A stretch of DNA of 64,000 bases, from the NCBI RefSeq assembly GCF_038397725.1, contig NZ_CP151634.1, forward strand, positions 2,232,001-2,296,000, given 5' to 3'. This stretch comes from Microbacterium sp. LWO13-1.2 (GTDB lineage Bacteria; Actinomycetota; Actinomycetes; Actinomycetales; Microbacteriaceae). Each line of letters begins with the position of its first letter. The stretch's first letter is position 1. Position numbers and translations under genes: made by a program. Below the pieces are notes generated by a model. The model worked only from the letters and a program-made list of their open reading frames with translations, was not told the origin of the DNA and did no database searches. Below are positions 46,373-63,751 of this stretch, piece by piece.

Positions 46373-47914
46373 ATGAGTGATCTGCCTTCCGTTCTCGTCG
46401 GCCACCAGCCGCTGGCCCCCGCCGATGTCGTCGCGGTGGCCCGCGACGGCGCACCCGTGGTCATTGCCGCCGAGGCGCTCGACCGCGTCGCGCACACGCG
46501 CAACGTCATCGACGGCCTTGCCGCTGATCCGCACCCGCACTACGGCGTCTCCACCGGCTTCGGCGCGCTGGCGACCACGTTCATCGCCCCCGATCGCCGG
46601 CTGCAGCTGCAGGCCAGCCTGATCCGGTCGCACGCCGCCGGCACGGGTGCCGAAGTCGAGCGCGAGGTCATCCGCGGGCTGCAACTGCTCCGCCTGCAGA
46701 CTCTTGCCTCAGGGCGCACCGGTGTGCGTCCGATCGTCGTGGAGACCTACGCCGCGATGCTCAACGCCGGAGTGACCCCGGTGGTGCGTGAGTACGGTTC
46801 ACTCGGGTGCTCCGGTGACCTCGCGCCTCTCGCGCACATCGCCCTCGCCGCGATGGGGGAGGGTGAGGTCAGGGACGCCGCCGGTGCACTGCGTCCGGCA
46901 TCCGAGGCACTGACCGCCGCCGGCATCGAGCCGGTCACGCTGGTCGAGAAGGAGGGGCTCGCGCTCATCAACGGCACCGACGGCATGCTCGGAATGCTCG
47001 TGCTCGCGCTGCACGACCTGGAGGCGCTGCTCGTCACGGCCGATATCGCCGCCGCGATGTCGGTCGAATCGCAGCTCGGCACCGATGCGGTGTTCGCCGC
47101 CGACCTGATGGCTCTGCGTCCACAGGAAGGGCAGTCGACGTCGGCCGCGAACCTGCGCGCGTTCCTCTCGAATTCGCCCATGGTCGCCAGCCACAAGGGC
47201 CCGGATGACGGACGTGTTCAGGATGCGTACTCGCTGCGCTGCTCGCCGCAGGTGCACGGCACCGCCCGCGACACCATGGGCTACGCCGCGATGATCGCCG
47301 GCCGCGAACTCGCCAGCGTCATCGACAACCCGGTGATCACCGTGGACGGACGGATCGAGTCGAACGGGAACTTCCATGGCGCACCGGTCGCCGCCGTCCT
47401 CGACTTCCTGGCCATCTCGGTCGCCGATGTCGCCTCGGTCTCCGAGCGACGTACCGACCGTGCGCTCGACCCCGCGCGCAGCCACGGACTTCCGCCGTTC
47501 CTCGCCGACGAGGTGGGTGTCGACTCCGGTCTCATGATCGCTCAGTACGCCGCGGCCGGCATCGTCTCGGAGCTGAAGCGCCTCGCCGTTCCGGCATCCG
47601 TCGACTCGATTCCCTCGTCCGCGATGCAGGAGGACCACGTGTCGATGGGGTGGGCAGCGGCTCGCAAGCTCCGTCGCGCGATCGACGGTCTCGGCCGGGT
47701 GCTCGCCATCGAGATCCTCACTGCGGCCCGCGCACTCGACCTGCGCGCACCGCTCGAGGCAGGGCCGGCCACCGGCGCGGTCCGCGACCTCGTCCGCACC
47801 GTCGCCGCCGGTCCTGGCCCCGATCGCTTCCTGTCCCCGGAGATGGAAGCCGTCACCGAACTCGTCCAGTCGGGCGCTGTCGCCCGCACCGCAAAGGAGT
47901 ACGTGAATGTCTGA
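46373..47914 (+). CDS. hutH: Histidine ammonia-lyase
   Basis: 513 residues. Deaminates histidine to urocanate. The MIO-forming tripeptide is Cys146-Ser147-Gly148 ([15 protein letters not shown]) in place of the common Ala-Ser-Gly; a CSG variant also occurs in other actinobacterial HutH, so activity is expected. YGVSTGFG at the N-terminus supplies the catalytic Tyr region. The start at 46373 is followed by the family N-terminus. Ends eight bases inside hutU. Confidence 0.95.
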
Positions 47915-49556
47915 ACCACGCAACATCCGCGCAGCGCGCGGCAACGTGCGCACCGCGAAGAGCTGGGGCGCAGAGGCTGCCAAGCGCATGCTGATGAACA
48001 ACCTCGATGCCGAGGTCGCCGAGCACCCCGAGGACCTCGTGGTCTACGGCGGCACGGGGAAGGCCGCGCGCAGCTGGGAGGCGTACGACGCGATCATCCG
48101 TACCCTCGACGAGCTGGAACCCGACGAGACGCTGCTCGTGCAGTCCGGCAAACCCGTCGGTGTCTTCCGTACGCATGAGTGGGCACCGCGCGTCCTCATC
48201 GCCAATTCCAACCTCGTCGGCGACTGGGCGACCTGGCCTGAGTTCCGCAAGCTCGAAGAGCTGGGTCTGATCATGTACGGGCAGATGACCGCCGGATCAT
48301 GGATCTACATCGGCACCCAGGGCATCCTGCAGGGTACCTACGAGACCTTCGCGGCCGTCGCCCGTTCGCTCGGGCGTGACTCCCTCACGGGCACGCTCAC
48401 CCTCACCGGTGGAGCCGGTGGCATGGGCGGCGCCCAGCCGCTGGCTGTGACGTTGAACGACGGCGTCGTGCTGATCGTCGACGTCGACGAGTCGCGTCTC
48501 TCGCGCCGCGTCGAGCACGGCTACCTCGACGAGTACACCACCGACCTCGACGCCGCGGTGGCCCGCGTCGTCGCCGCCAAGGACGCGGGCGAAGCGCTCT
48601 CGGTGGGTGTCGTCGGCAACGCGGCAGAGCTGTTCCCCGAACTGCTCCGCCGCGGTGTGCCGATCGACATCGTGACCGATCAGACCAGCGCGCACGACCC
48701 GCTCGCGTACCTGCCCGTCGGGATCTCGGTCGCCGACTGGAAGGCCGAGGCCGAGCGCGACGCCGAGGAGTTCACCCGCCGTTCGCGGGAGTCCATGGCC
48801 GCGCAGGTCGCCGCGATGGTGGCCTTCAAGGATGCCGGTGCTGCTGTCTTCGACTACGGCAACTCGATCCGCGCCGAAGCGGTTCTGGGCGGCTTCGACC
48901 GCGCCTTCGAGTTCCCCGGGTTCGTGCCGGCCTACATCCGGCCGCAGTTCGAGGAGGGCCGTGGGCCGTTCCGGTGGGCGGCGCTCTCCGGCGACCCGGA
49001 AGACATCTACAAGACCGATCGCGCGATCGCCGAACTGTTCCCCGAAGACAAGGCGCTGCATCGGTGGCTGGAGAAGGCAGGCGAGAAGGTGCACTTCGAG
49101 GGCCTGCCCGCCCGCATCTGCTGGCTCGGCTACAAGGAACGGCACCTCGCCGGCCTCAAGTTCAACGAGATGGTGGCATCCGGTGAACTGAAGGCGCCGA
49201 TCGTGATCGGCCGTGACCACCTCGACTCCGGATCCGTCGCCTCGCCGTACCGCGAGACCGAGTCCATGAAGGACGGCTCCGACGCGATCGCCGACTGGCC
49301 GCTGCTGAACGCGCTGTTGAACACCGCCTCCGGAGCTTCCTGGGTGTCCCTGCACCACGGCGGAGGTGTGGGCATCGGCCGCAGCATCCACGCCGGTCAG
49401 GTATCGGTCGCCGACGGCTCCGCGCTTGCCGCGGAGAAGCTCGAGCGGGTGCTCACGAACGATCCGGGTACCGGGGTCATGCGTCACGTCGATGCCGGCT
49501 ACGAGCACGCCAAGGACGTCGCCCGCGAGCGCGGCCTCAAGGTGCCGATGTTGTGA
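47907..49556 (+). CDS. hutU: Urocanate hydratase
   Basis: 549 residues, full length. NAD+-containing enzyme converting urocanate to imidazolone propionate. Contains the tight [34 protein letters not shown] and [15 protein letters not shown] signatures of the family. Overlaps hutH and hutI, so the three are translationally coupled. Confidence 0.97.
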
Positions 49557-50719
49557 TGAGCACGCTGATCACGAACATCGGGGAGCTGACGACCAACGTC
49601 GCAGCCGACGGCGACCTCTGCGGCACGCTGCGTGACGCGGCGGTGCTCATCGAGGACGGGCGGATCGCCTGGGTAGGCCCAGCCGCCCAGGCGCCGGCGG
49701 CCGCAGAGATCGTCGACGCCGACGGGCGGGCGATGATCCCGGGCTTCGTCGACAGTCACAGCCACCTCGTCTTCGCCGGGGACCGCGCTGTCGAGTTCGA
49801 GTCGCGGATGGCGGGGCAGAAGTATGCTGCCGGCGGCATCCGCTCGACCGTCGCGGCGACGCGTGCCGCCTCGGAGGAGGAACTGCGCGGGCGGTTGCGC
49901 GGCTTCCTCGACGAGATGCTCGCCCAGGGCACCACGACGGTGGAGATCAAGAGCGGCTACGGGCTGGACGTCGAGACGGAGGAGCGGCTGGTGCGCCTCG
50001 CCGCCGAGGTGACGCCCGAGGTGACATTCCTCGGCGCGCATGTGGTTCCGGCTGAGTATGCCGATCGTGCGGACGAGTACGTCGATCTCGTGACGGGGCG
50101 GATGCTGGATGCCTGCGCTCCGCATGCGAAGTGGATCGACGTCTTCTGCGAGACCGGGGCTTTCACCGTCGAGCAGTCGCGCCGGGTGCTGGAGGCGGGC
50201 ATCGCTCGCGGACTGGCGCCGCGCGTGCATGCGAGCCAGCTGGGCCCGGGGGAGGGCGTGCAGCTCGCCGTCGATCTGGGCGCCGCATCCATCGATCACG
50301 GCACGTACCTGACGGACACCGATGTGGCGGCTCTCGCCGCGTCCGACACCGTGCTCACGCTGCTGCCCGGTGTCGAATTCTCGACCCGCCAGCCGTATCC
50401 CGATGCCCGTCGCCTCATCGACGCCGGCGTGACGGTCGCGCTGGCCTGCGACACGAATCCGGGATCGAGCTTCACCTCGTCGATGCCGTTCTGCATCGCC
50501 GTCGCGGTGCGCGACATGGGCATGACGCCCGCCGAAGCCGTATGGGCCGCGACGGCCGGTGGAGCACGGGCCCTGCGACGCGACGACATCGGCGTCATCG
50601 TCCCTGGTGCGCGCGCCGATCTGGTACTGCTGGACGCGCCGACGCGCATCCACCTCGCCTACCGGCCCGGCGTGCCGCTCGTGTCCCACGTGTGGAAGGA
50701 CGGCGTCGCGATCCGCTAG
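49556..50719 (+). CDS. hutI: Imidazolonepropionase
   Basis: 387 residues. Metal-dependent amidohydrolase opening imidazolone propionate to formimino-glutamate. HxH metal motif [11 protein letters not shown], later His residues in FLGAHVVP and RVHASQL, and Asp in [14 protein letters not shown]. The ATG at 49556 overlaps the hutU stop as TGATG; a GTG three bases earlier is an equal alternative. hutG or hutF is not in the window. Convergent with the YrdB gene (4-nt overlap). Confidence 0.95.
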
Positions 50720-52691: not shown

Positions 52692-52744
52692 GCCGCGCCC
52701 CCGCGTGGGGCCCACTTCGAATCGAAGACGGTCGGCCTACTTCG
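52676..52744. terminator. Nested inverted repeats between convergent genes
   Basis: CTTCGATTCGAAGT (52676-52689) pairs with 52714-52727 (14 bp perfect) around an inner GCCCC/GGGGC hairpin. Alternatively CGAAGTAGGCC (52684-52694) pairs with 52734-52744 (11 bp perfect). The two pairings are mutually exclusive, and both include the stop region of the CsoR-family gene or the permease gene. Probable bidirectional terminator. Confidence 0.65.
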
Positions 52745-54281
52745 TACCGAAGACCTCGCCCTCCATCGCGTCGTAGCCCTCGGCCTGCGGGTCGCCGTGC
52801 GTTCCACCGGAGAGGGCGTACTCCTCCTCGGGGGAGAGCACCAGACGGTGACGGAAGAACAGTCCGAACCCGACCAGGATGATGACGTAGACGATCGCGA
52901 TGGCGATGATCGCGGGCCCGAACGTCGGGTTCAGCAGGAAGCCGACGAAGATGAGCGCGGCGATCACCAGGGCGATGACGGCTCCGGGGATGCCCCAGGG
53001 GCTGCGATACGGGCGGTCGGCGTTCGGGTACTTCTTGCGCAGCACCATGAACGACACCAGCTGAAGCGCATAGGCGAGCACCGCTCCCCACACCGCGATG
53101 TTCAGAACGATCGCACCTGCCACGGATCCGGCGCCTTCGGCGTCGACGGCGGCGAGGACATCCAGCACGATCAGGGCGACGAACCCGATCGCCGCGCCGA
53201 CGACCAGAGCGACCCACGGTGTCTGGCGCTTACCGGTGAGCGAGAGGAACCGAGGGTAGTAGCCGGCCCGGGACAGCGAGTACATGTTGCGGCCGTAGGC
53301 GAACATGATCCCCTGGAGCGAGGCGAGCAGACCGATCAGGGCGAACAGGGCGAGGACGGCGGCCATCTGATCGCCGACGATCGCGCGGAAGCCGTCGAGG
53401 AGAGGTTCGCCGGCCACGCTGGTCGCCTCGGCACCGAGGATGCCGGTGTTCAGGAACAGGACGAGGAGGCCGGTCACGATGAGCGTGCCGCGGGCCCAGA
53501 ACCCGGCCTTGGGAATGTCGCGGGTGGGGTTGTGCGACTCTTCGGCGGCGAGGGGCAGCTCCTCGATTCCGAGGAAGAACCACATCGCGAACGGGAGCGC
53601 GAACAGGATCGGGAGTACGCCGTGCGGGAGGAACGCCGTCTGTCCGGGATCGGGCGCGATGTTCCAGAGCGAATCCCAGGAGAAGGCGCCGGAGAAGGCG
53701 GCCATCACCGAGAAGACGAGGATGATGCCGATCGAGATGATGGAGACGATGATCGCGAAGCGGAACGAGATCGCGGCTCCGGCCGAGTTCAGGGCGATGA
53801 AGACGACGTAGAGGATGATGTACCACGCCCATCCCGGCAAGGTGAAGTCGAACAGTTCGCTGGTGATGCCGTTGGCGTAGGAGGCGGAGAAGTAGACGAT
53901 CACCGCCGTCGTGGCGACGTATTCGATCGTCTCGGCGGCGCCGGTGACGAGGCCGCCCCACGGGCCCATGGCCGAGCGCGCGAACGAATAGGCGCCGCCG
54001 GTGTGCGGCATCGCGGCGGCCATCTCTCCGATCGAGAAGATCATGCCGTAGTACATGAGCACCAGGATCGCGAAGGCGATGAGCATTCCGCCGAAGCCGG
54101 CGAAGTCGATGCCGAAGTTCCATCCGGAGAAGTCTCCGGAAATGACTGCGGCGACCGCGAGACCCCACAGCCCCCACACTCCTGCGGATCGCTTCAGCGT
54201 CCGCTTCTCGAAGTAATCGCTGCCGGCGCGGGTATAGGTCGCCCCACCGACCTTGCGCGACCCAGTTTTCTGCTCAGACAT
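52737..54281 (-). CDS. eat: APC-family permease, ethanolamine-permease-like
   Basis: 514 residues, about 12 TM helices, APC superfamily. Resembles the ethanolamine permease (Eat) group: WGLAVAAVISGDFSGWNFGI (GxxG/S motif in TM1), EMAAAMPHTGGAYSFARSAMGPWGG, and GIEELPLAAEESHNPTRDIPKA. Divergent from the glutamine-synthetase-like gene of a gamma-glutamylation pathway, which fits import of ethanolamine or a related amine. An amino-acid substrate cannot be excluded. Confidence 0.85.
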   Translation of the reverse strand: MSEQKTGSRKVGGATYTRAGSDYFEKRTLKRSAGVWGLWGLAVAAVISGDFSGWNFGIDFAGFGGMLIAFAILVLMYYGMIFSIGEMAAAMPHTGGAYSFARSAMGPWGGLVTGAAETIEYVATTAVIVYFSASYANGITSELFDFTLPGWAWYIILYVVFIALNSAGAAISFRFAIIVSIISIGIILVFSVMAAFSGAFSWDSLWNIAPDPGQTAFLPHGVLPILFALPFAMWFFLGIEELPLAAEESHNPTRDIPKAGFWARGTLIVTGLLVLFLNTGILGAEATSVAGEPLLDGFRAIVGDQMAAVLALFALIGLLASLQGIMFAYGRNMYSLSRAGYYPRFLSLTGKRQTPWVALVVGAAIGFVALIVLDVLAAVDAEGAGSVAGAIVLNIAVWGAVLAYALQLVSFMVLRKKYPNADRPYRSPWGIPGAVIALVIAALIFVGFLLNPTFGPAIIAIAIVYVIILVGFGLFFRHRLVLSPEEEYALSGGTHGDPQAEGYDAMEGEVFGTK

Positions 54282-54298
54282 CCGGTCTCCATTCGCAT

Positions 54299-54317
54299 GC
54301 AGTCAGGCGCCGACTGC
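54299..54317. promoter_or_regulatory. Inverted repeat in the permease/ligase divergent gap
   Basis: GCAGTC-AGGCGCC-GACTGC (54299-54317), just upstream of the permease start. Candidate operator of a regulator shared by both directions. Confidence 0.45.
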
Positions 54318-54337
54318 ACCTAGCGCCCGATTGTGGC

Positions 54338-54351
54338 ATCCAATGGTGGAT
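54338..54351. promoter_or_regulatory. Second inverted repeat in the permease/ligase gap
   Basis: ATCCA-ATGG-TGGAT, perfect 5-bp arms. May be the site of the downstream-encoded GntR-type regulator, but no match to a GntR consensus was verified. Confidence 0.4.
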
Positions 54352-54440
54352 TCGTCTACCTTTAAACCCGGAAGGTGTTCTACTCTGAGGGCGGAGCCGG
54401 TCGGCTGATCGCTCCACCGCACACAGGACAGGAGCGTCAG

Positions 54441-55796
54441 ATGTCGGGAAACCTGAGCATCGAGCAGCTGGATGCCGGCATCGGAGCCGGCGAGATCGAT
54501 ACCGTGATCGTGGCCTTCGCCGACGCCCAGGGGCGGCTGGTGGGCAAGCGGGTCTCTGCTCGACTGTTCCAGGAGGACATCCTTCACCACGGCGCCGAGG
54601 CGTGCGACTACCTGCTCTCGGTCGACGTCGACATGAACACGGTCGACGGCTACGCGATGTCGGGCTGGGATCGCGGATACGGGGACATGGTGCTGCGCCC
54701 GGATGCCGAGACTCTCCGCCGCATGCCCTGGCTGCCCGGTACCGCGCTCGTGATGGCAGACCTCGTCTGGCAGAACGGCGAACCGGTCGGCCCATCGCCG
54801 CGCGCGATCCTCGATCGGCAGCGCGACCGCCTGGCCGAGCGCGGCTGGACCGCCTTCTCCGGTACCGAGCTCGAGTTCATCGTGTTCGAGAACACCTACC
54901 GCGATGCCTGGGCACGCAAGTACGAGGGGCTGACGCCCGCGACGGACTACAACGTCGACTACAACCTCCTCGCCTCGACCCGCATGGAGCCGCTGCTGCG
55001 CGACATCCGCAACGGCATGGACGGTGCGGGGATGTATTGCGAGGGCGTCAAGGGGGAGTGCAACTTCGGTCAGCAGGAGATCGCGTTCCGCTACGCGGAG
55101 GTGCGGGAGACCGCCGATCAGCACGCGATCTACAAGAACGGCGCGAAGGAGATCGCCGAGCAGCATGGACAGGCGCTGACGTTCATGGCCAAGTTCAACG
55201 AGCGCGAAGGCAACAGCTGCCACATCCACCTCTCCCTCCGCGACCAGGACGGAACGCCGGTGATGGCGGGCGATGGCGAGCACGGGTTCAGCCCGATCAT
55301 GGAGCACTGGATCGCCGGCATCCTGGCGACCCTGCGCGAATTCACCCTGCTGTACGCGCCGAACATCAACTCGTACAAGCGATTCGCGAAGGGCAGCTTC
55401 GCCCCGACCGGGGTGGCCTGGGGGATCGACAACCGCACCTGTGCGCTGCGGGTGATCGGGAGCGGCTCCGCGCTCCGCGTCGAGAACCGGGTGCCGGGCG
55501 GCGATGTGAACCCGTACCTCGGAATCTCGGCGATCATCGCCGGCGGACTGCACGGCATCGAGAACGAACTGGCGCTGCCCGAGCGCTTCACCGGCAACGC
55601 CTACGAGGCGGGCGTCGATCACCTGCCGACGACGCTGCGCGAGGCCGCGCAGCTGTTCAGCGAATCGTGGATCGCACGCGATGCGTTCGGCGACGACATG
55701 GTGGAGCACTATCTGAACCAGGCGCGTATCGAGGTCGAAGCCTATGATGCCGCCGTCACCGACTGGGAGCGCGTCCGTGGCTTCGAGCGACTCTGA
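54441..55796 (+). CDS. Glutamine-synthetase-like gamma-glutamyl-amine ligase
   Basis: 451 residues. GS catalytic fold: GTELEFIVFE, GVKGECNFGQQEIAF (metal/ammonia-site Glu), GNSCHIHLSLRD, NRTCALRVIG and ENRVPGGDVNPYLGISAIIAGGL. Lacks the adenylylation-loop Tyr context of housekeeping GlnA and groups by neighbourhood with PuuA / GlnA4-type enzymes that join glutamate to small amines. First gene of a ligase-hydrolase-ALDH-SDR-GntR operon; start at 54441 with AGGAG upstream. Ethanolamine is the most likely amine (see findings). Confidence 0.88.
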   Translation: MSGNLSIEQLDAGIGAGEIDTVIVAFADAQGRLVGKRVSARLFQEDILHHGAEACDYLLSVDVDMNTVDGYAMSGWDRGYGDMVLRPDAETLRRMPWLPGTALVMADLVWQNGEPVGPSPRAILDRQRDRLAERGWTAFSGTELEFIVFENTYRDAWARKYEGLTPATDYNVDYNLLASTRMEPLLRDIRNGMDGAGMYCEGVKGECNFGQQEIAFRYAEVRETADQHAIYKNGAKEIAEQHGQALTFMAKFNEREGNSCHIHLSLRDQDGTPVMAGDGEHGFSPIMEHWIAGILATLREFTLLYAPNINSYKRFAKGSFAPTGVAWGIDNRTCALRVIGSGSALRVENRVPGGDVNPYLGISAIIAGGLHGIENELALPERFTGNAYEAGVDHLPTTLREAAQLFSESWIARDAFGDDMVEHYLNQARIEVEAYDAAVTDWERVRGFERL

Positions 55797-56535
55797 CGTG
55801 CGATCCGCGCCTCGCATCGGCGTCAGCACGTATCTGGAACGCGCCCAGCAGGGTGTCTGGGATGTGCGCGCGGCGTTCCTACCCGATGTGTATCTCAACG
55901 CGGTCACCGCATCCGGTGGCGTCGCCCTGCTGCTGCCTCCACAGGCCGAGCAGGTCGCCGACATCGCGGTGGCGGGTCTGGATGGTCTGATCCTCACCGG
56001 CGGTGCCGACGTGCAGCCGGAGCTCTACGGGGCCGAGCGTCATCCGCAGACGGATGCGGCGCGAATCGACCGTGACGCCTGGGAACTGGCGCTGTTCCGC
56101 GCCGCTGAGCGCCGGCGGCTCCCCGTGCTCGCGATCTGCCGCGGCCTGCAGCTGGTGAATGTGGCCAGGGGTGGAACGCTGCAGCAGCATCTGCCGGAGT
56201 CCCTCGGCACCGATCGCTATCGAATCGGCGGCGGCGTGTTCGCCGAGAACGAGGTGGCCATCGAGGCGGAGTCGACGCTCTCGCAGATCCTCGGAGACGA
56301 AACCTACCCGGTGCACAGCTACCACCATCAGGGCATCGGGCGACTCGGCGACGGCCTTGCCGTCAGCGCACGATCCGACGACGGTCTCGTGCAGGCGTTC
56401 GAGGGCGTCGGCGACGGATACCTCGTCGGCGTTCAGTGGCATCCGGAGGAGAACACCGACGACCGGCGGCTCTTCGAAGATCTCGTCTCACAGGCTCGCG
56501 CGTTCGCTGCGCGGCAGAAGGAGGAAACGCGATGA
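55777..56535 (+). CDS. Gamma-glutamyl hydrolase, PuuD-like (class I GATase)
   Basis: 252 residues. Class I glutamine-amidotransferase-type fold of the PuuD/peptidase C26 family: nucleophile Cys in LAICRGLQLVNVARGG, catalytic His-Glu in VQWHPEEN, and the GLILTGGADVQPELYG loop. Would release glutamate from a gamma-glutamyl intermediate. The GTG at 55777 has GGGAG eight bases upstream and lies 20 bases inside the ligase gene; other in-frame starts at 55744 and 55798 are possible. Confidence 0.88.
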   Translation: MASSDSDVRSAPRIGVSTYLERAQQGVWDVRAAFLPDVYLNAVTASGGVALLLPPQAEQVADIAVAGLDGLILTGGADVQPELYGAERHPQTDAARIDRDAWELALFRAAERRRLPVLAICRGLQLVNVARGGTLQQHLPESLGTDRYRIGGGVFAENEVAIEAESTLSQILGDETYPVHSYHHQGIGRLGDGLAVSARSDDGLVQAFEGVGDGYLVGVQWHPEENTDDRRLFEDLVSQARAFAARQKEETR

Positions 56536-57893
56536 GCGCGTTCACTGTCATCAACCCGTCCACCGGCGCGCCGATCCGCGACATCACGCGCGCCGGCGTC
56601 GACGAGACGGATGCCGCGATCGCACGCGCCGTCGCCGCGCAGCGTCGCTGGGCGGCCCTCGCGCCGCTCGCGCGGGCTGATGCCCTGCGTGCGTTCGCCC
56701 GCGCCGTCGAAGGTGCGGTGGAGGAGCTGGCGCAGCTGGAAGTGCTGAACTCGGGGCATCCGATATCCTCGGCGCGGTGGGAGGCTGCGCATGTCGCCCA
56801 GGTCCTCAACTACTACTCCGCCGATCCCGAGCGGCTGTCCGGACGACAGATCCCTGTCGCGGGTGGCCTCGATGTGACCTTCCATGATCCGTACGGCGTC
56901 GTCGGTGTCATCGTGCCGTGGAACTTCCCGATGACGATCGCCTCCTGGGCGTTCGCGCCGGCGCTCGCCGCGGGCAACGCCGTTGTGCTGAAGCCGGCCG
57001 AGCTCACGCCACTGACGGCCATCCGGCTGGGCGAACTGGCCGTCGAAGCCGGGCTGCCCGCGGGACTGCTCGAGGTCGTCACCGGATCCGGGTCGGTCGT
57101 CGGGCAGCGGCTGGTCGAGCACCCGGATGTGCGCAAGGTGGTCTTCACCGGGTCGACTGAGGTCGGGATCGATGTGGCGGCCGGATGCGCCAGGGCGCTG
57201 AAGCCCGTGACGCTCGAGCTCGGTGGCAAGAGCGCCAACATCGTCTTCGCCGACGCCGACCTCGAGCGCGCTGTGGCCGCTGTTCCCGGGTCGGTGTTCG
57301 ACAACGCGGGGCAGGACTGCTGCGCCCGCAGCCGTCTGCTCGTGCAGCGATCGGTGTACGACCGCTTCCTGGAGATGCTCGAACCCGCGGTGGCATCGTG
57401 GCGGGTCGGCGACCCCGGCAGCGCGGACAACGACATGGGACCCCTCATCTCGGCGAATCACCGCGACACCGTGTCGTCGTTCCTCGACGACGCGAACATC
57501 GCCTTCCGAGGGTCCGCACCCGAAGGCGACGGCTTCTGGTTCGCGCCGACCGTGGTGCTGGCGGACCCCGCCGACCGGATCGCGCAGCAGGAGGTGTTCG
57601 GACCCGTCGTCGCGGTGATGCCGTTCGAGGACGAGGCCGACGCGATCCGTCTCGCCAATGACACCGTCTACGGGCTCGCCGGATCCGTGTGGACCGAGAA
57701 CCTCGGCCGCGCGGTCCGGGTCGCGCGCGGCGTGCAGAGCGGCGTGCTGTCGGTGAACTCCCACTCCTCGGTGCGCTACGCGACACCGTTCGGCGGCATG
57801 AAGGCGTCGGGTCTCGGGCGCGAACTGGGACCGGATGCCGCCGAGCATTTCACCGAGACCAAGAACGTCTTCTTCGCGACCGATGCCCTCTGA
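56532..57893 (+). CDS. Aldehyde dehydrogenase of the gamma-glutamylation operon
   Basis: 453 residues, NAD(P)+-dependent ALDH superfamily. Catalytic Glu in LELGGKSANIVF and catalytic Cys in GQDCCARS; cofactor-binding FTGSTEVG. Expected to oxidise a gamma-glutamyl-amino-aldehyde to the acid. ATGA overlap with the hydrolase gene. Slightly short N-terminus compared with classical ALDHs, but all catalytic residues are present. Confidence 0.92.
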   Translation: MSAFTVINPSTGAPIRDITRAGVDETDAAIARAVAAQRRWAALAPLARADALRAFARAVEGAVEELAQLEVLNSGHPISSARWEAAHVAQVLNYYSADPERLSGRQIPVAGGLDVTFHDPYGVVGVIVPWNFPMTIASWAFAPALAAGNAVVLKPAELTPLTAIRLGELAVEAGLPAGLLEVVTGSGSVVGQRLVEHPDVRKVVFTGSTEVGIDVAAGCARALKPVTLELGGKSANIVFADADLERAVAAVPGSVFDNAGQDCCARSRLLVQRSVYDRFLEMLEPAVASWRVGDPGSADNDMGPLISANHRDTVSSFLDDANIAFRGSAPEGDGFWFAPTVVLADPADRIAQQEVFGPVVAVMPFEDEADAIRLANDTVYGLAGSVWTENLGRAVRVARGVQSGVLSVNSHSSVRYATPFGGMKASGLGRELGPDAAEHFTETKNVFFATDAL

Positions 57894-57914
57894 TCGCGTC
57901 GCCTGCCCATCACT

Positions 57915-57938
57915 CGAACCTCTCACCCGAACCTCTCA
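57915..57938 (+). repeat. Tandem CGAACCTCTCA repeat
   Basis: Two copies of CGAACCTCTCA (57915-57925 and 57928-57938), 13-bp period, in the 59-base gap between the aldehyde dehydrogenase and the SDR. Function unknown; possibly a small duplication. Confidence 0.6.
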
Positions 57939-57952
57939 ACCGGAGAACACAC

Positions 57953-58732
57953 ATGAGCATTGATCTGACCCAGCGACTCAAGGATCGCGTCGCCATCATC
58001 ACCGGCGGGGCGAGCGGTATCGGCTTCGCGACCGCCAAGCGGTTCGCCGCCGAGGGGGCGTTCGTCGTCATCGCAGACGTCGATCCGACCACCGGAGAGG
58101 CGGCCGCGACCGAGATCGGCGGAGCGTTCCGTTCCGTCGACGTCGCCGACGAAGTCAAGGTGAACGCGCTGTTCGACGGCGTCGCCGCCGAGTTCGGCCG
58201 GATCGACATCGCCTTCAACAACGCCGGCATCTCGCCGGCCGACGACGACTCGATCGAGACGACGGAGCTGCCGGCGTGGGACCGCGTCCAGGATGTGAAC
58301 CTGAAGAGCGTGTACCTGTGCAGCCGGGCCGCGCTCCGGCACATGGTTCCGGCCGGTCGAGGGTCGATCATCAACACCGCCTCATTCGTCGCGCTGCTGG
58401 GATCCGCGACCTCGCAGATCAGCTACACGGCCTCGAAGGGCGGCGTGCTGGCGATGTCGCGTGAGCTCGGTGTGCAGTTCGCTCGCCAGGGCATCCGGGT
58501 GAACGCACTCTGCCCTGGGCCGGTCAACACGCCGTTGCTCCAGGAGCTCTTCGCCAAGGATCCGGAGCGCGCGCAGCGTCGTCTCGTGCACGTGCCGATG
58601 GGCCGTTTCGCCGAGCCCGAGGAGATGGCGGCTGCCGTGGCGTTCCTCGCCTCCGATGACTCGTCCTTCATCACCGCCAGCGCCTTCGTCGTGGACGGCG
58701 GAATCAGCAACGCCTACGTGACCCCGCTATGA
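57953..58732 (+). CDS. Short-chain dehydrogenase/reductase
   Basis: 259 residues. Classical SDR: cofactor motif TGGASGIG, NNAGIS, catalytic Ser in NTASFVALLG and the YxxxK pair in SYTASKGGV. DVDP after the second strand favours NAD. In the operon it could oxidise the alcohol of a gamma-glutamyl-ethanolamide to the aldehyde used by the preceding dehydrogenase. CGGAGAA precedes the ATG; stop overlaps gntR as ATGA. Confidence 0.88.
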   Translation: MSIDLTQRLKDRVAIITGGASGIGFATAKRFAAEGAFVVIADVDPTTGEAAATEIGGAFRSVDVADEVKVNALFDGVAAEFGRIDIAFNNAGISPADDDSIETTELPAWDRVQDVNLKSVYLCSRAALRHMVPAGRGSIINTASFVALLGSATSQISYTASKGGVLAMSRELGVQFARQGIRVNALCPGPVNTPLLQELFAKDPERAQRRLVHVPMGRFAEPEEMAAAVAFLASDDSSFITASAFVVDGGISNAYVTPL

Positions 58733-59466
58733 GCATCGATCCTCCGGGTGCAGACGGCGGCGACCTCGCCGAGGTGCGTCGGGCGGTGTATCGACCGCTT
58801 CGCCGTGGGAACGCCCTGGAGGACACGGTGGCCCGCCTCGTGCAGACCATCCGCCTCGGCGTCGTCGCTCCGGGGGACTCGTTGCCGCCCGAGCGGGAAC
58901 TCGCGGCGTCGTTCGGGGTGAGCCGTGACACCGTGCGCGACGCGATCCGTGAACTGGCCGACACCGGTTACCTGCTGCCGAAGCGAGGTCGCTACGGCGG
59001 CACATTCGTCGCGGATCCGCTCCCGCAGCCGTCGGTCGCGGGAGCCGTGACGCCCGTCGAGCTCGATGACGTCCTCGGGCTCCGTCTCGTGCTGGAGGCC
59101 GGGTCGGCGCACGCGGCTGCGAGCAGGACTCTGGATGCCGCGACCAGGGCCGAGCTGTGGGCACGGCACGAAGCCGCACTGCCTGCGGGGCCGGAGGAGT
59201 ATCGGCGCCTGGACACGCTGTTCCATCTGGCGATCGCCGAGGCGGCCGGGGTGCCGTCGCTGGTCGCGCTCGTCGCCGAGAACCGGGCCGGCGTCAACGC
59301 CTGGCTCGACACCTTTCCGCTGATGCCCCGCAACATCCAGCATTCCGGAGAGCAGCACGAGCGCATCGTCACGGCGATCCTCGCCGGTCGCCCCGACGCC
59401 GCGGAGTCGGCGATGCGTGATCATCTCGCCGGGTCTGAAGCGCTGCTGAGAGGGTTCCTGATCTGA
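58729..59466 (+). CDS. GntR-family (FadR/FCD) regulator
   Basis: 245 residues. N-terminal winged helix (APGDSLPPERELAASFGVSRDTVRDAIRELADTGYLLPKRGRYGG) and C-terminal FCD effector domain with the metal-binding His pattern (FHLAIAEAAG, HSGEQHERIVTAI, AMRDHLAGS). Last gene of the amine-catabolic operon and the obvious local regulator, probably responding to the substrate or an intermediate. Confidence 0.9.
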   Translation: MSIDPPGADGGDLAEVRRAVYRPLRRGNALEDTVARLVQTIRLGVVAPGDSLPPERELAASFGVSRDTVRDAIRELADTGYLLPKRGRYGGTFVADPLPQPSVAGAVTPVELDDVLGLRLVLEAGSAHAAASRTLDAATRAELWARHEAALPAGPEEYRRLDTLFHLAIAEAAGVPSLVALVAENRAGVNAWLDTFPLMPRNIQHSGEQHERIVTAILAGRPDAAESAMRDHLAGSEALLRGFLI

Positions 59467-59630: not shown

Positions 59631-60791
59631 ATGACCGGCACAGTGCCAGCGTCGACCATGACGCGCGATGCGGCGACAGGCGCGGGTGGCGTCAGCATCG
59701 AAGGCGTCACCAAGCTCTACGGCAGCGCCAAAGCGGTCGACGACCTCACGCTCGACGTCCGACCGGGCGAGTTCCTCTCGCTCCTGGGGCCATCCGGCTG
59801 CGGGAAGACGACGACGCTGCGGATGATCGCCGGCTTCGAGTATCCGGACGCCGGTGACATCCGCATCTCCGGCCGCAGTGTGCTGAATCTACCGCCCCAC
59901 CGTCGCGAGGTGAACACGGTCTTCCAGGCATACGCGCTGTTCCCACACCTGACCGTCGCCGAGAACGTCGCCTACGGTCTCCAGCAGCGCCGCGTGCCGA
60001 AGGCCGAGCAGCGCATCAGGGTCGGCGAGGCGCTCGACATGGTGCAACTGCGCTCGTTCGCCGACCGCAAGCCGACCCAGCTCTCGGGCGGCCAGCAACA
60101 GCGCATCGCCCTCTCCCGTGCGCTCATCAACCGGCCGAGCGTCCTCCTGCTGGATGAGCCGCTCGCCGCTCTCGACCGTCAGCTGCGCGAGGAGATGCAG
60201 CTCGAGCTCAAGCTGCTGCAGGCGCGGCTGGGCACGACCTTCGTCTTCGTCACGCACGATCAGGCGGAGGCGCTGTCGATGAGCGACCGGATCGCCGTGA
60301 TGCGGGCGGGACGCATCGAACAACTCGACGCTCCGGCCGCGATCTACGCCGAGCCGGCTTCCGCGTACGTCGCCTCGTTCATCGGACAGCAGAACTTCAT
60401 CCCCGGCACCGTGCATCAGGACGGCGCCGCCGTCGACACGGCGCTCGGCGTGCTTTCCGGGCGATGGGGCGGTGAGGTGGTCGCGGCCGGCCGGGCGGCG
60501 GTGGCGGCGATCCGCCCCGAGTTCATCCGCCTCGAGGATCCGCTGAGACAGGGTGACGGCGTCCGGGGAAACGTCCTCGGCGTCTCCCACCTCGGGGAGA
60601 CCCTTCAGGTGCTCGTCGACGTCGGCCTGGAGCAGAAGGTGCTCGTGCGCACGCCGGCACCCGCCGCCCCGGTCCTTCAGCCCGGTGACGACATCCGCTG
60701 CGTCTGGAATGCCGCCGACGTGCGCCTGTTCGCCGCCGAAGGCGCACCGAGTACGGCGACGCACGTGATCAACCTGCCCGCGCCCGCCTGA
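59631..60791 (+). CDS. potA: Spermidine/putrescine-type ABC ATPase (PotA)
   Basis: 386 residues. Walker A GPSGCGKT (53-60), Q-loop FQAYALFPH, signature [15 protein letters not shown], Walker [13 protein letters not shown], switch FVTHD, then a C-terminal TOBE domain (about 290-380). Energises the importer encoded by the next three genes. GGAGG five bases before the ATG. Confidence 0.93.
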
Positions 60792-60841
60792 CCGCATCCG
60801 ACTCCTTGACCCGAGACAACCGACCCACACAGGGGAGTGCC

Positions 60842-62023
60842 ATGAACGACTTCAACAGCATCCGCATCCTCGCCGACAGCAACGCGGCGCCTCTTCTTCG
60901 CCGCGAGCTCTCGCGCCGAGGTTTCATGGGAACGATGATGGCGCTCGGTGCCGCGGGCCTTCTGACCGCCTGCGCGCCCGGCGGACAGGGCAAGCCGGCC
61001 GCGCAGGCGACGGGCGGCACCCTGGAGGATTCGCTCTCGATCTACAGTTGGGGCGAGTACGACGCCCCCGAGGTCGTCGAGGCGTTCACGAATGAGCACG
61101 GCGCCAAGGTCGTCATGGACACGTTCGCCTCCAATGAGGAGATGATCGCGAAGCTGGTCGCCGCGAAGGGCACCAGCGGCTACGACCTCGTCGTGCCGAC
61201 GGGGGTGTTCATTCCGCAGATGATCGAGAACGGTCTGCTGGCGAAGCTGAACCTCGATCTCATCCCGAACATCGAGCACATGGATCCTGCGTTCCTCGGG
61301 CGGGAATGGGACCCGAAGAACGAGTACTCGATCTGCAAGGCCTGGGGCACGACCGGCTTCGTCTACGACAAGACCGTCATCACCCGTCCGCTCACGACCT
61401 GGAGCGACTTCATCGACGCGGCCCAGAACGAAGCGTCGGGCAAGACCTCCGTCCTCGACGATCCGAGCCCGCTGTGCGGCATCTACTACTGGGCGAACGG
61501 GATCGACTGGACCACGACGGACCCGGCCGACCTCGACGCCTGCGAGGCGTTCCTGGTCGGCGAGCTCGCCCCGCATATCTCCGCCTTTGACTCCTACCCC
61601 GGTGGGGCTGCGATCCCGCAGGCGTCTCATGTGCTGATGCAGGCGTGGAACGGCGATGCGCGCATCGGCATCATGGAGTCACCGGACCCCGACCGCTGGC
61701 AGTGGGTCCTGGGCGCGCCGGACACCGAACTGTGGATGGACAACTGGGCACTGGTCACGGGGGCGCCGCATCCGGAGGCCGCGCACGCCTTCCTCGATTT
61801 CATCCTCACCCCGGAATCGCAACTCGCCCAGGTCGACTACATCGGCTATGACACCGGAGCGGCCGGCATCAGAGCAGCGGCAGAGGCAGCCGGGTTCGAG
61901 CGGCTCGACATGGTCTTCTTCGACGAGGCGCAGATCGAGACCATGCACGAGGGCAAGGTCGGCGAGGCGCAGGCACGGGTCGTCGAGATCTGGAATGCCA
62001 CAAAGGCCGCCGCGGGTGCGTAG
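60842..62023 (+). CDS. potD: ABC substrate-binding lipoprotein (PotD-like)
   Basis: 393 residues. Twin-arginine signal (SRRGFMG, Arg25-Arg26) followed by a lipobox with Cys44 (LLTAC), so a Tat-exported lipoprotein. The mature domain (SIYSWGEYDAPEVVEAFTNE, then GYDLVVPTG) is a family-1 polyamine-binding fold, PotD/PotF group. Ligand undetermined; could be a polyamine or another amine. Its stop overlaps the permease start by eight bases. Confidence 0.9.
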   Translation: MNDFNSIRILADSNAAPLLRRELSRRGFMGTMMALGAAGLLTACAPGGQGKPAAQATGGTLEDSLSIYSWGEYDAPEVVEAFTNEHGAKVVMDTFASNEEMIAKLVAAKGTSGYDLVVPTGVFIPQMIENGLLAKLNLDLIPNIEHMDPAFLGREWDPKNEYSICKAWGTTGFVYDKTVITRPLTTWSDFIDAAQNEASGKTSVLDDPSPLCGIYYWANGIDWTTTDPADLDACEAFLVGELAPHISAFDSYPGGAAIPQASHVLMQAWNGDARIGIMESPDPDRWQWVLGAPDTELWMDNWALVTGAPHPEAAHAFLDFILTPESQLAQVDYIGYDTGAAGIRAAAEAAGFERLDMVFFDEAQIETMHEGKVGEAQARVVEIWNATKAAAGA

Positions 62024-62900
62024 CCCCCGGTTCGTGCTCGCCGTTCCCGCATGGGCGTGGCTGCTGGCGTTCTTCGTCGCTCCCATCGGAATGGTCGTCT
62101 GGTTCAGCTTCGGCTACAAACCGGGCATCTTCGGCACCCACGCCAATGACGTCCTCTCCTTCGACCGCTACGTCGAAGCGCTCTCTCCGACGTTCTTCAC
62201 CACGTTCCAGAACACGCTCTGGGTCGGTGTGCTCGGCACACTGCTGTGCCTGATCATCGGGATGCCGGTGGCGTATTGGATGGCGGTGAAGGCGCCGCCC
62301 GAGCGCCGGGGGCTGCTGCTCGCGCTGGTCATGGTGCCCTTCTGGACGAACTTCCTGGTGCGCACGCTCGGCTGGCAGGTCATCCTCGCCCCGGAAGGCT
62401 GGCTGTCGACCCTGCTGCAGGGCATCGGTGTCACCGATGGTCCCCTCGAAGTGCTCTACACCCGCGCCGCCGTGCTCATCGGCGTCGTGTACAACTACCT
62501 GCCGCTGATGATCCTGCCGCTGTTCGTCGCCTTCGATCGGGTGAGCACGCCGCTGCGGGAGGCGAGCAAGGACCTCGGAGCGAATGCGGTGAGCACCTTC
62601 CTCCGCGTCACCGTGCCGCTCGCCCGCCCCGGCATCATCGCCGGCGTGCTGCTGGTGTACATCCCGCTGATGGGCGATTACATCACCGCGACGGTTCTCG
62701 GCGGCGCGCAGGGCAACATGATCGGGCAGCTCGTCGCGAGCCAGTTCGGCACCGCGCAGAACTGGGCGCTGGGCTCGGCGATGGCGGTGCTGCTGATCAT
62801 CGTCATCATGCTGTCGATCGGCATCGCGGCCGCGCTGATCTGGGCGGCGACGCTGCCGTTCCGATCGCGCAGCCGGCTCATCCTGGGGGAGGGATCATGA
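62016..62900 (+). CDS. potB: ABC permease, PotB-like
   Basis: 294 residues, six TM helices, with the EAA/ABC-coupling motif REASKDLGANAVSTFLRVTVPLARPGI. GTG start at 62016 inside the end of the binding-protein gene (translational coupling). First permease half of the importer. Confidence 0.9.
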   Translation: MRSPRFVLAVPAWAWLLAFFVAPIGMVVWFSFGYKPGIFGTHANDVLSFDRYVEALSPTFFTTFQNTLWVGVLGTLLCLIIGMPVAYWMAVKAPPERRGLLLALVMVPFWTNFLVRTLGWQVILAPEGWLSTLLQGIGVTDGPLEVLYTRAAVLIGVVYNYLPLMILPLFVAFDRVSTPLREASKDLGANAVSTFLRVTVPLARPGIIAGVLLVYIPLMGDYITATVLGGAQGNMIGQLVASQFGTAQNWALGSAMAVLLIIVIMLSIGIAAALIWAATLPFRSRSRLILGEGS

Positions 62901-63751
62901 CTCGCAATGCCCGGCGAGGGCAACTCGGCAATCGCCTGCTCGCGGTGTGGTCGGTGATCGTCTTCGCGTTCCTGTTCCTGCCGATCATCGTGATCATCGC
63001 CTACTCGTTCAACTCCGGGCGTCTCCTCGTCGCCTGGGAGGGGTTCAGCCTGGCCCCGTTCGCCGCGATCTTCGAGAAGCCGGTGATCCGTGACGCGGTG
63101 ATGGTGTCGATCCGCACCGGACTCATCGCCGCGGTCCTCGCGTCGCTGCTGGGCACGCTGGCCGGTATCGCCATGGCGCGGCGGCCCGGGCGCTGGGTGT
63201 GGTGGTTCCTCGGGCTGCTCCTGCTGGTGTCCGTGACTCCGGAGATCGTGGATGCCGTGGCGCTGCTGCCATGGCTCGTCTTCCTCGGACAGGACCTCGG
63301 GATCAGCCTGTTCAGCGACGGCACGGCCCGCCTCGTCGTCGGCCATTCGCTGTTCTCGGTCGCGATCGTCTCCTACATCGTGCGGGCGCGTCTGGTCGGG
63401 CAGGATGCTCGTCTCGAAGAGGCATCCGCAGACCTGTACGCCACACCGCTGCGGACCTTCATGAAGATCACGCTGCCGCTGGCGATGCCTGCGGTGCTGG
63501 CCGGCTTCCTGCTCTCGTTCACCCTGAGCCTGGACAACACCGTGGTCTCGGCGTTCGTGCAGGTCTCCGGCACGACGCCGTGGCCGGTCTACGTCCTCTC
63601 CGCGCTGCGCAGCGGATTGCGACCAGAGATCGCCGCGGTGTCGACGATCATGCTCGTGCTCACGCTGATCTCGCTCGCCCTGGTGGCACTCGTCCTCAAG
63701 CGTGCGGGCGACTCCGCGACGCAGATCGCCCGCACGATGGCCGGAGGCTGA
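62897..63751 (+). CDS. potC: ABC permease, PotC-like
   Basis: 284 residues, six TM helices; coupling motif EEASADLYATPLRTFMKITLPLAMPAVLAG. SFNSGR near the N-terminus is typical of PotC. Overlaps potB as ATGA. Second permease half. Confidence 0.9.
   Translation: MTRNARRGQLGNRLLAVWSVIVFAFLFLPIIVIIAYSFNSGRLLVAWEGFSLAPFAAIFEKPVIRDAVMVSIRTGLIAAVLASLLGTLAGIAMARRPGRWVWWFLGLLLLVSVTPEIVDAVALLPWLVFLGQDLGISLFSDGTARLVVGHSLFSVAIVSYIVRARLVGQDARLEEASADLYATPLRTFMKITLPLAMPAVLAGFLLSFTLSLDNTVVSAFVQVSGTTPWPVYVLSALRSGLRPEIAAVSTIMLVLTLISLALVALVLKRAGDSATQIARTMAGG

Follow-up and report, generated by a model that had tools for sequence, protein, structure and literature searches.

A 64,000-base stretch of the Microbacterium sp. 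LWO13-1.2 genome (hereafter the window; positions 2232001-2296000 of one 4,008,377-base contig) contains, at 52737-59466, a divergent cassette of six genes for a permease, a glutamine-synthetase-like ligase, a C26 hydrolase, an aldehyde dehydrogenase, a short-chain dehydrogenase/reductase (SDR) and a GntR/FCD regulator. The original prediction had described these genes as a complete gamma-glutamylation pathway, probably for ethanolamine; scans of open reading frames (ORFs) and protein families bore out its coordinates and family assignments, and all six products exceed their Pfam cut-offs (AA_permease, Gln-synt_C, Peptidase_C26, Aldedh, adh_short_C2 and GntR+FCD). The APC-family permease, a predicted ethanolamine importer (52737-54281), is encoded on the reverse strand, with 159 bases between it and the start of the ligase. 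On the forward strand follow the GlnA4-type ligase, a predicted gamma-glutamylethanolamide synthetase (54441-55796; PF00120, 320.7 bits); the hydrolase, a predicted gamma-glutamylglycine amidohydrolase (55744-56535; PF07722, 207.3 bits); the aldehyde dehydrogenase, predicted to convert the gamma-glutamyl aldehyde to gamma-glutamylglycine (56532-57893; PF00171, 519.3 bits); the classical SDR, a predicted gamma-glutamylethanolamide (alcohol) dehydrogenase (57953-58732; PF13561, 221.8 bits); and the regulator, a predicted EpuRI-like repressor (58729-59466; PF00392 and PF07729). The genes had been described as packed with overlapping starts. This holds for two junctions with ATGA overlaps, hydrolase/aldehyde dehydrogenase (56532) and SDR/regulator (58729), and possibly for the hydrolase and ligase, since the hydrolase start is ambiguous, lying either within the final 53 bases of the ligase or at a GTG (55798) directly past the ligase stop; it does not hold for the aldehyde dehydrogenase and SDR, which are 59 bases apart, or for the divergent permease.

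The genome has three Gln-synt_C genes, the cassette ligase and two others, which, from their mutual closeness, are presumably GlnA1 and GlnA2. We built a tree from 26 proteins, namely the products of these three genes, E. coli PuuA and 22 proteins from two Streptomyces and two Mycolicibacterium genomes (chosen from 25 matches, omitting one duplicate and two partial ones). The cassette ligase and four partners, one per genome, form a clade of five (support 100/100), apart from the remaining glutamine-synthetase-like paralogs of these genomes and from PuuA; the cassette ligase is 66-70% identical to the partners and at most 36% to every other row. The partners are, by position, the ligases of the conserved cassette described below. 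The place of our ligase within the clade is weakly supported (85/79), and the tree program warned of long branches in other parts of the tree. The nearest protein found in a protein search is 94% identical and carries the name Microbacterium. Among solved structures 11zs comes first by sequence (417.9 bits), followed by 5dm3 (395.1 bits), presumably a Chromohalobacter salexigens protein; the remaining chains listed for the glutamine synthetase family reach at most 168 bits, with 4hpp, which is PauA7 (PMC6529630), at 63.9 bits. Krysenko et al. 2019 assigned residues of GlnA4 to metals, glutamate, nucleotide and flap (PMC6529630). All 13 that were tested, being the positions with a single assignment (two model-dependent positions in that paper were not counted), occur in our ligase, eight of them at an offset of 13 and five at an offset of 11, and the same 13 are present in two Streptomyces orthologs at offsets of 10 and 7. 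The original prediction had called the system analogous to that of Streptomyces GlnA4; the likeness is supported by the clade and the residues, and the term understates it, as these data support reading the ligase as a GlnA4 ortholog.

The hydrolase is 35% identical to E. coli PuuD, and its Cys132, His233 and Glu235 align to the PuuD motifs CRGLQ and WHPE. The aldehyde dehydrogenase, 39% identical to E. coli PuuC, keeps LELGGK and GQDC. The SDR has the motifs NNAG, NTAS and YTASK and exceeds the cut-off of NF004713, a model named 3-oxoacyl-ACP reductase (481.5 bits against 404). As for the permease, its best NCBIfam model is TIGR00908, ethanolamine permease, with a sub-cut-off score of 327 bits, the next model scoring 95.4, and this fits the dedicated permease that had been proposed.

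To place the cassette among relatives, we scanned genome contigs with a nine-sequence alignment and used the 80 best stretches among the 588 that were confirmed. By title these are actinobacterial, save one metagenome-assembled genome labelled Acidobacteria (L147), and contig ends interrupt some of them. The ligase is found in all 80, the C26 hydrolase in 79, the aldehyde dehydrogenase in 78, the SDR in 78, the GntR regulator in 67 and the permease in 54; 44 loci keep the exact order permease (divergent), ligase, hydrolase, aldehyde dehydrogenase, SDR, regulator. Since aldehyde dehydrogenase and SDR occur together in 77 of the 80 (the exceptions are L090, L098 and L149), the arrangement is beyond chance. 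Our ligase is thus linked to an SDR, an aldehyde dehydrogenase, a glutamine amidotransferase-type hydrolase, a regulator and a permease, as is expected of a member of the GlnA4 cluster. In a wider sample of the order, 67 of 297 genomes have a ligase match at E <= 1e-60, the weaker of which, 36-50% identical, are not necessarily GlnA4.

EutB and EutC each gave no match in the genome, E. coli being positive in both controls, and this agrees with the proposed independence from eutBC. The original prediction had also held that the FAD amine oxidase of putrescine breakdown, PuuB, is absent. ORF and Pfam scans detected none inside the cassette, and the claim is limited to the cassette because a protein encoded 0.68 Mb away, at 1604279-1605400, resembles PuuB of E. 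coli (36% identity, residues 21-390 of 422). Its best NCBIfam model is a putative aminophosphonate oxidoreductase, below cut-off. It adjoins an aldehyde dehydrogenase and an AsnC-type regulator, which is 63% identical to the AsnC regulator beside the window, and the three genes (L192:7115-10523) are possibly a separate amine-degradation module.

An alignment of the permease-ligase gap from 21 relatives and the window contains a conserved block that can be read as a palindrome, AWWGGT-N9..11-ACCWWT. In the window it takes the form AATGGT-N10-ACCTTT at 54342-54363, and the starts of the permease and the ligase are 60 and 77 bases away, respectively; it is a predicted operator by its conservation and its rarity in the genome. 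Of 104 ligases, 59 have the palindrome upstream (49 of 79 in named loci, 9 of 24 in unnamed loci, and the window). Among 2057 control pieces, each of 300 bases and taken from elsewhere in the same loci with upstream regions excluded, 3 contain it. The 104 do not include the six loci L068-L073, which are weakly related, or L147, which has too short an upstream region; as one contig appears as both L056 and L136, the count for distinct loci is 58 of 103. Three Streptomyces loci carry AWWGGT-N10-ACCTTA, one base off the strict palindrome. Within its own genome, the palindrome with spacers of 8-10 has a single match, the one in the window, and the reversed-pattern control has none. A spacer of 11 adds one place, 1849185-1849207 (reversed-pattern control 0), which looks unlikely to be an operator and more like a terminator stem because it sits between the ends of two converging ORFs. 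Two earlier patterns were replaced by this palindrome: ATTGGT-N4..8-TGTCTACCTTTG (up to 3 mismatches) matched 29 of 90 upstream regions and 3 of 261 controls, with an unreliable strand for ten loci, and ATTGGT-N6-TGTCTACCTTT, with as many as 2 mismatches allowed, was present in 7 of 39 Microbacterium genomes, with one reversed-control match and none in the own genome. The same gap of the window also contains a second inverted repeat, TGCAGTC-N7-GACTGCA (54298-54318), which is not among the inverted repeats listed for the 21 relatives.

Taken together, we consider it very probable that Microbacterium has in this cassette an ortholog of the glnA4 ethanolamine cluster of Streptomyces, with a full scheme of uptake, breakdown and repression. 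Ethanolamine as the substrate, as originally predicted, agrees with the ligase orthology, the EutB and EutC negatives and the best model of the permease. On the scheme we infer, ethanolamine would be imported by the permease and joined by the ligase, with glutamate and ATP, to give gamma-glutamylethanolamide; the SDR would oxidize the alcohol of this amide to the aldehyde, the aldehyde dehydrogenase would convert the aldehyde to gamma-glutamylglycine, and the C26 hydrolase would release glutamate and glycine. This series of reactions had been foreseen and is in agreement with orthology to the GlnA4 cluster. The GntR control that had been proposed has its counterpart in the regulator gene of the cassette; the GntR/FCD protein would repress both divergent transcripts from the one intervening palindrome until ethanolamine or its glutamyl product is present. 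For the palindrome itself we lean, if only slightly, towards its being the single functional operator of a dedicated EpuRI-type GntR repressor, a two-way switch for ethanolamine uptake and breakdown that may use the same code from Microbacteriaceae through many mycobacteria to Streptomyces.

Several points weigh against this interpretation. Some of the loci had already been viewed when the palindrome was defined, and the loci in the count are related to one another; the strict form of the palindrome is absent from 45 of the 104 upstream regions (and from 34 of the 88 loci with a detected gntR) and is present in 5 of the 16 loci in which no gntR was detected. EpuRI is equated with the cassette regulator by position alone, as the word GntR is never used in PMC6529630. 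In the ligase comparison, other Streptomyces orthologs and published residue numbers stood in for the sequence of SCO1613. The 327 bits of the permease fall short of the TIGR00908 cut-off of 381.75, which one Streptomyces cluster permease exceeds (489.5 bits), and in a Mycolicibacterium locus (L102) a different APC protein, with TIGR00907 as its best, sub-cut-off model, holds the permease position. Finally, a polyamine-type ABC transporter set of the potABCD type (59631-63751) lies directly downstream, 164 bases past the regulator; its first two genes have PotA and PotD as best models, and its two permease genes are named by position.

This transporter set, the PuuB-like protein elsewhere in the genome and a class-III aminotransferase nearby would all suit a Puu-like pathway, in which putrescine or spermidine would be imported by the adjacent PotABCD and gamma-glutamylated, with the PuuB step encoded elsewhere. 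The E. coli K-12 puu system indeed has the same types of ligase, aldehyde dehydrogenase and C26 hydrolase (32% identity to PuuA, besides the 39% to PuuC and 35% to PuuD given above). It has the PuuB oxidase, however, where our cassette has an SDR, and its regulator PuuR belongs, we believe, to another family. On NF045547, the model for gamma-glutamylputrescine synthetase (cut-off 650), our ligase reaches 188.9 bits and is thus not of the PuuA type, and the SDR, kept in nearly all loci, has no part in the Puu route. In L049, L078 and L079, the three closest relatives with enough flanking sequence, no pot gene was detected after the regulator, which is followed there by another aminotransferase/aldehyde dehydrogenase pair. 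The potABCD block is therefore a local feature outside the conserved cassette, and with a ligase unlike PuuA we set the polyamine pathway aside as highly improbable. The reported work also describes GlnA4 as specific for ethanolamine and not as a polyamine ligase (PMC6529630). That specificity, together with TIGR00908 as the best permease model, speaks also against the same chemistry acting on another amino alcohol or short monoamine, such as 1-amino-2-propanol, alaninol or 3-aminopropanol; an SDR and an aldehyde dehydrogenase would suit these as well, and chain length is not set by sequence alone, yet we regard such a substrate as improbable and keep ethanolamine as the predicted one.

Beyond the pot-type genes come an amidohydrolase family 3 gene and then, on the other strand, the class-III aminotransferase (802 bits on NF005102, cut-off 574) and the AsnC regulator, in a stretch (L004:11749-15296) that extends past the window end. 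In another genome (G260) the pair of aminotransferase and AsnC regulator (90-91 and 88%) is located past the aminotransferase/aldehyde dehydrogenase pair. Upstream of the cassette, three genes at 46373-50719, in an order shared with L048 and L049, are presumably hutH, hutU and hutI of histidine degradation. Several mycobacterial GlnA4 cassettes (in L099, L102, L104, L105, L115, L125, L145 and L154) have cobalt/nickel transporter-like genes nearby, which we take to be of the CbiM or NiCoT type. The idea that an ABC transporter with potA matches substitutes for the permease in mycobacterial loci was dropped, the ORFs concerned presumably being such cobalt or nickel transporters.

The pathway is already published, its first step for Streptomyces in PMC6529630. 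In Streptomyces coelicolor, a glnA4 mutant is reported to be unable to use ethanolamine for growth in liquid defined medium, GlnA4 to make gamma-glutamylethanolamide in vitro, and deletion of epuRI to derepress glnA4, the repressor role of EpuRI coming from mutant and RT-PCR data (PMC6529630); a review gives the same four steps for this organism (PMC9397018). The S. coelicolor cluster SCO1610-SCO1615 and its permease-bearing Streptomyces relatives share the six functions and an orthologous ligase with our cassette. Such permease-bearing clusters have been described for other Streptomyces, S. coelicolor itself being without the permease, and the content of the three Streptomyces loci among our 80 matches the legend of Fig. 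2 of that paper (PMC6529630). The arrangement differs: in the Streptomyces loci the genes for ligase, aldehyde dehydrogenase and SDR diverge from those for regulator, permease and hydrolase, whereas in our cassette the permease gene is the sole divergent one and the hydrolase gene comes second in the ligase operon. A Phaeobacter sp. operon for ethanolamine gamma-glutamylation has the same series of ligase, amide-alcohol dehydrogenase, aldehyde dehydrogenase and gamma-glutamylglycine hydrolase, but its importer is of the TRAP type (EtoVWX) and its regulator of the RpiR type, in place of our APC permease and GntR regulator; the same article cites functional work on this route in Chromohalobacter and Agrobacterium (PMC10132767). 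What is added here is the Microbacterium member, its arrangement and a predicted switch site, a term search of the PMC6529630 text having returned no operator or motif. An experimentally described, B12-independent ethanolamine route is thereby placed in Microbacterium. Its permease, hydrolase and regulator share one cassette, which is present in many actinobacterial records, and the predicted operator would give a direct handle on the control of the pathway.

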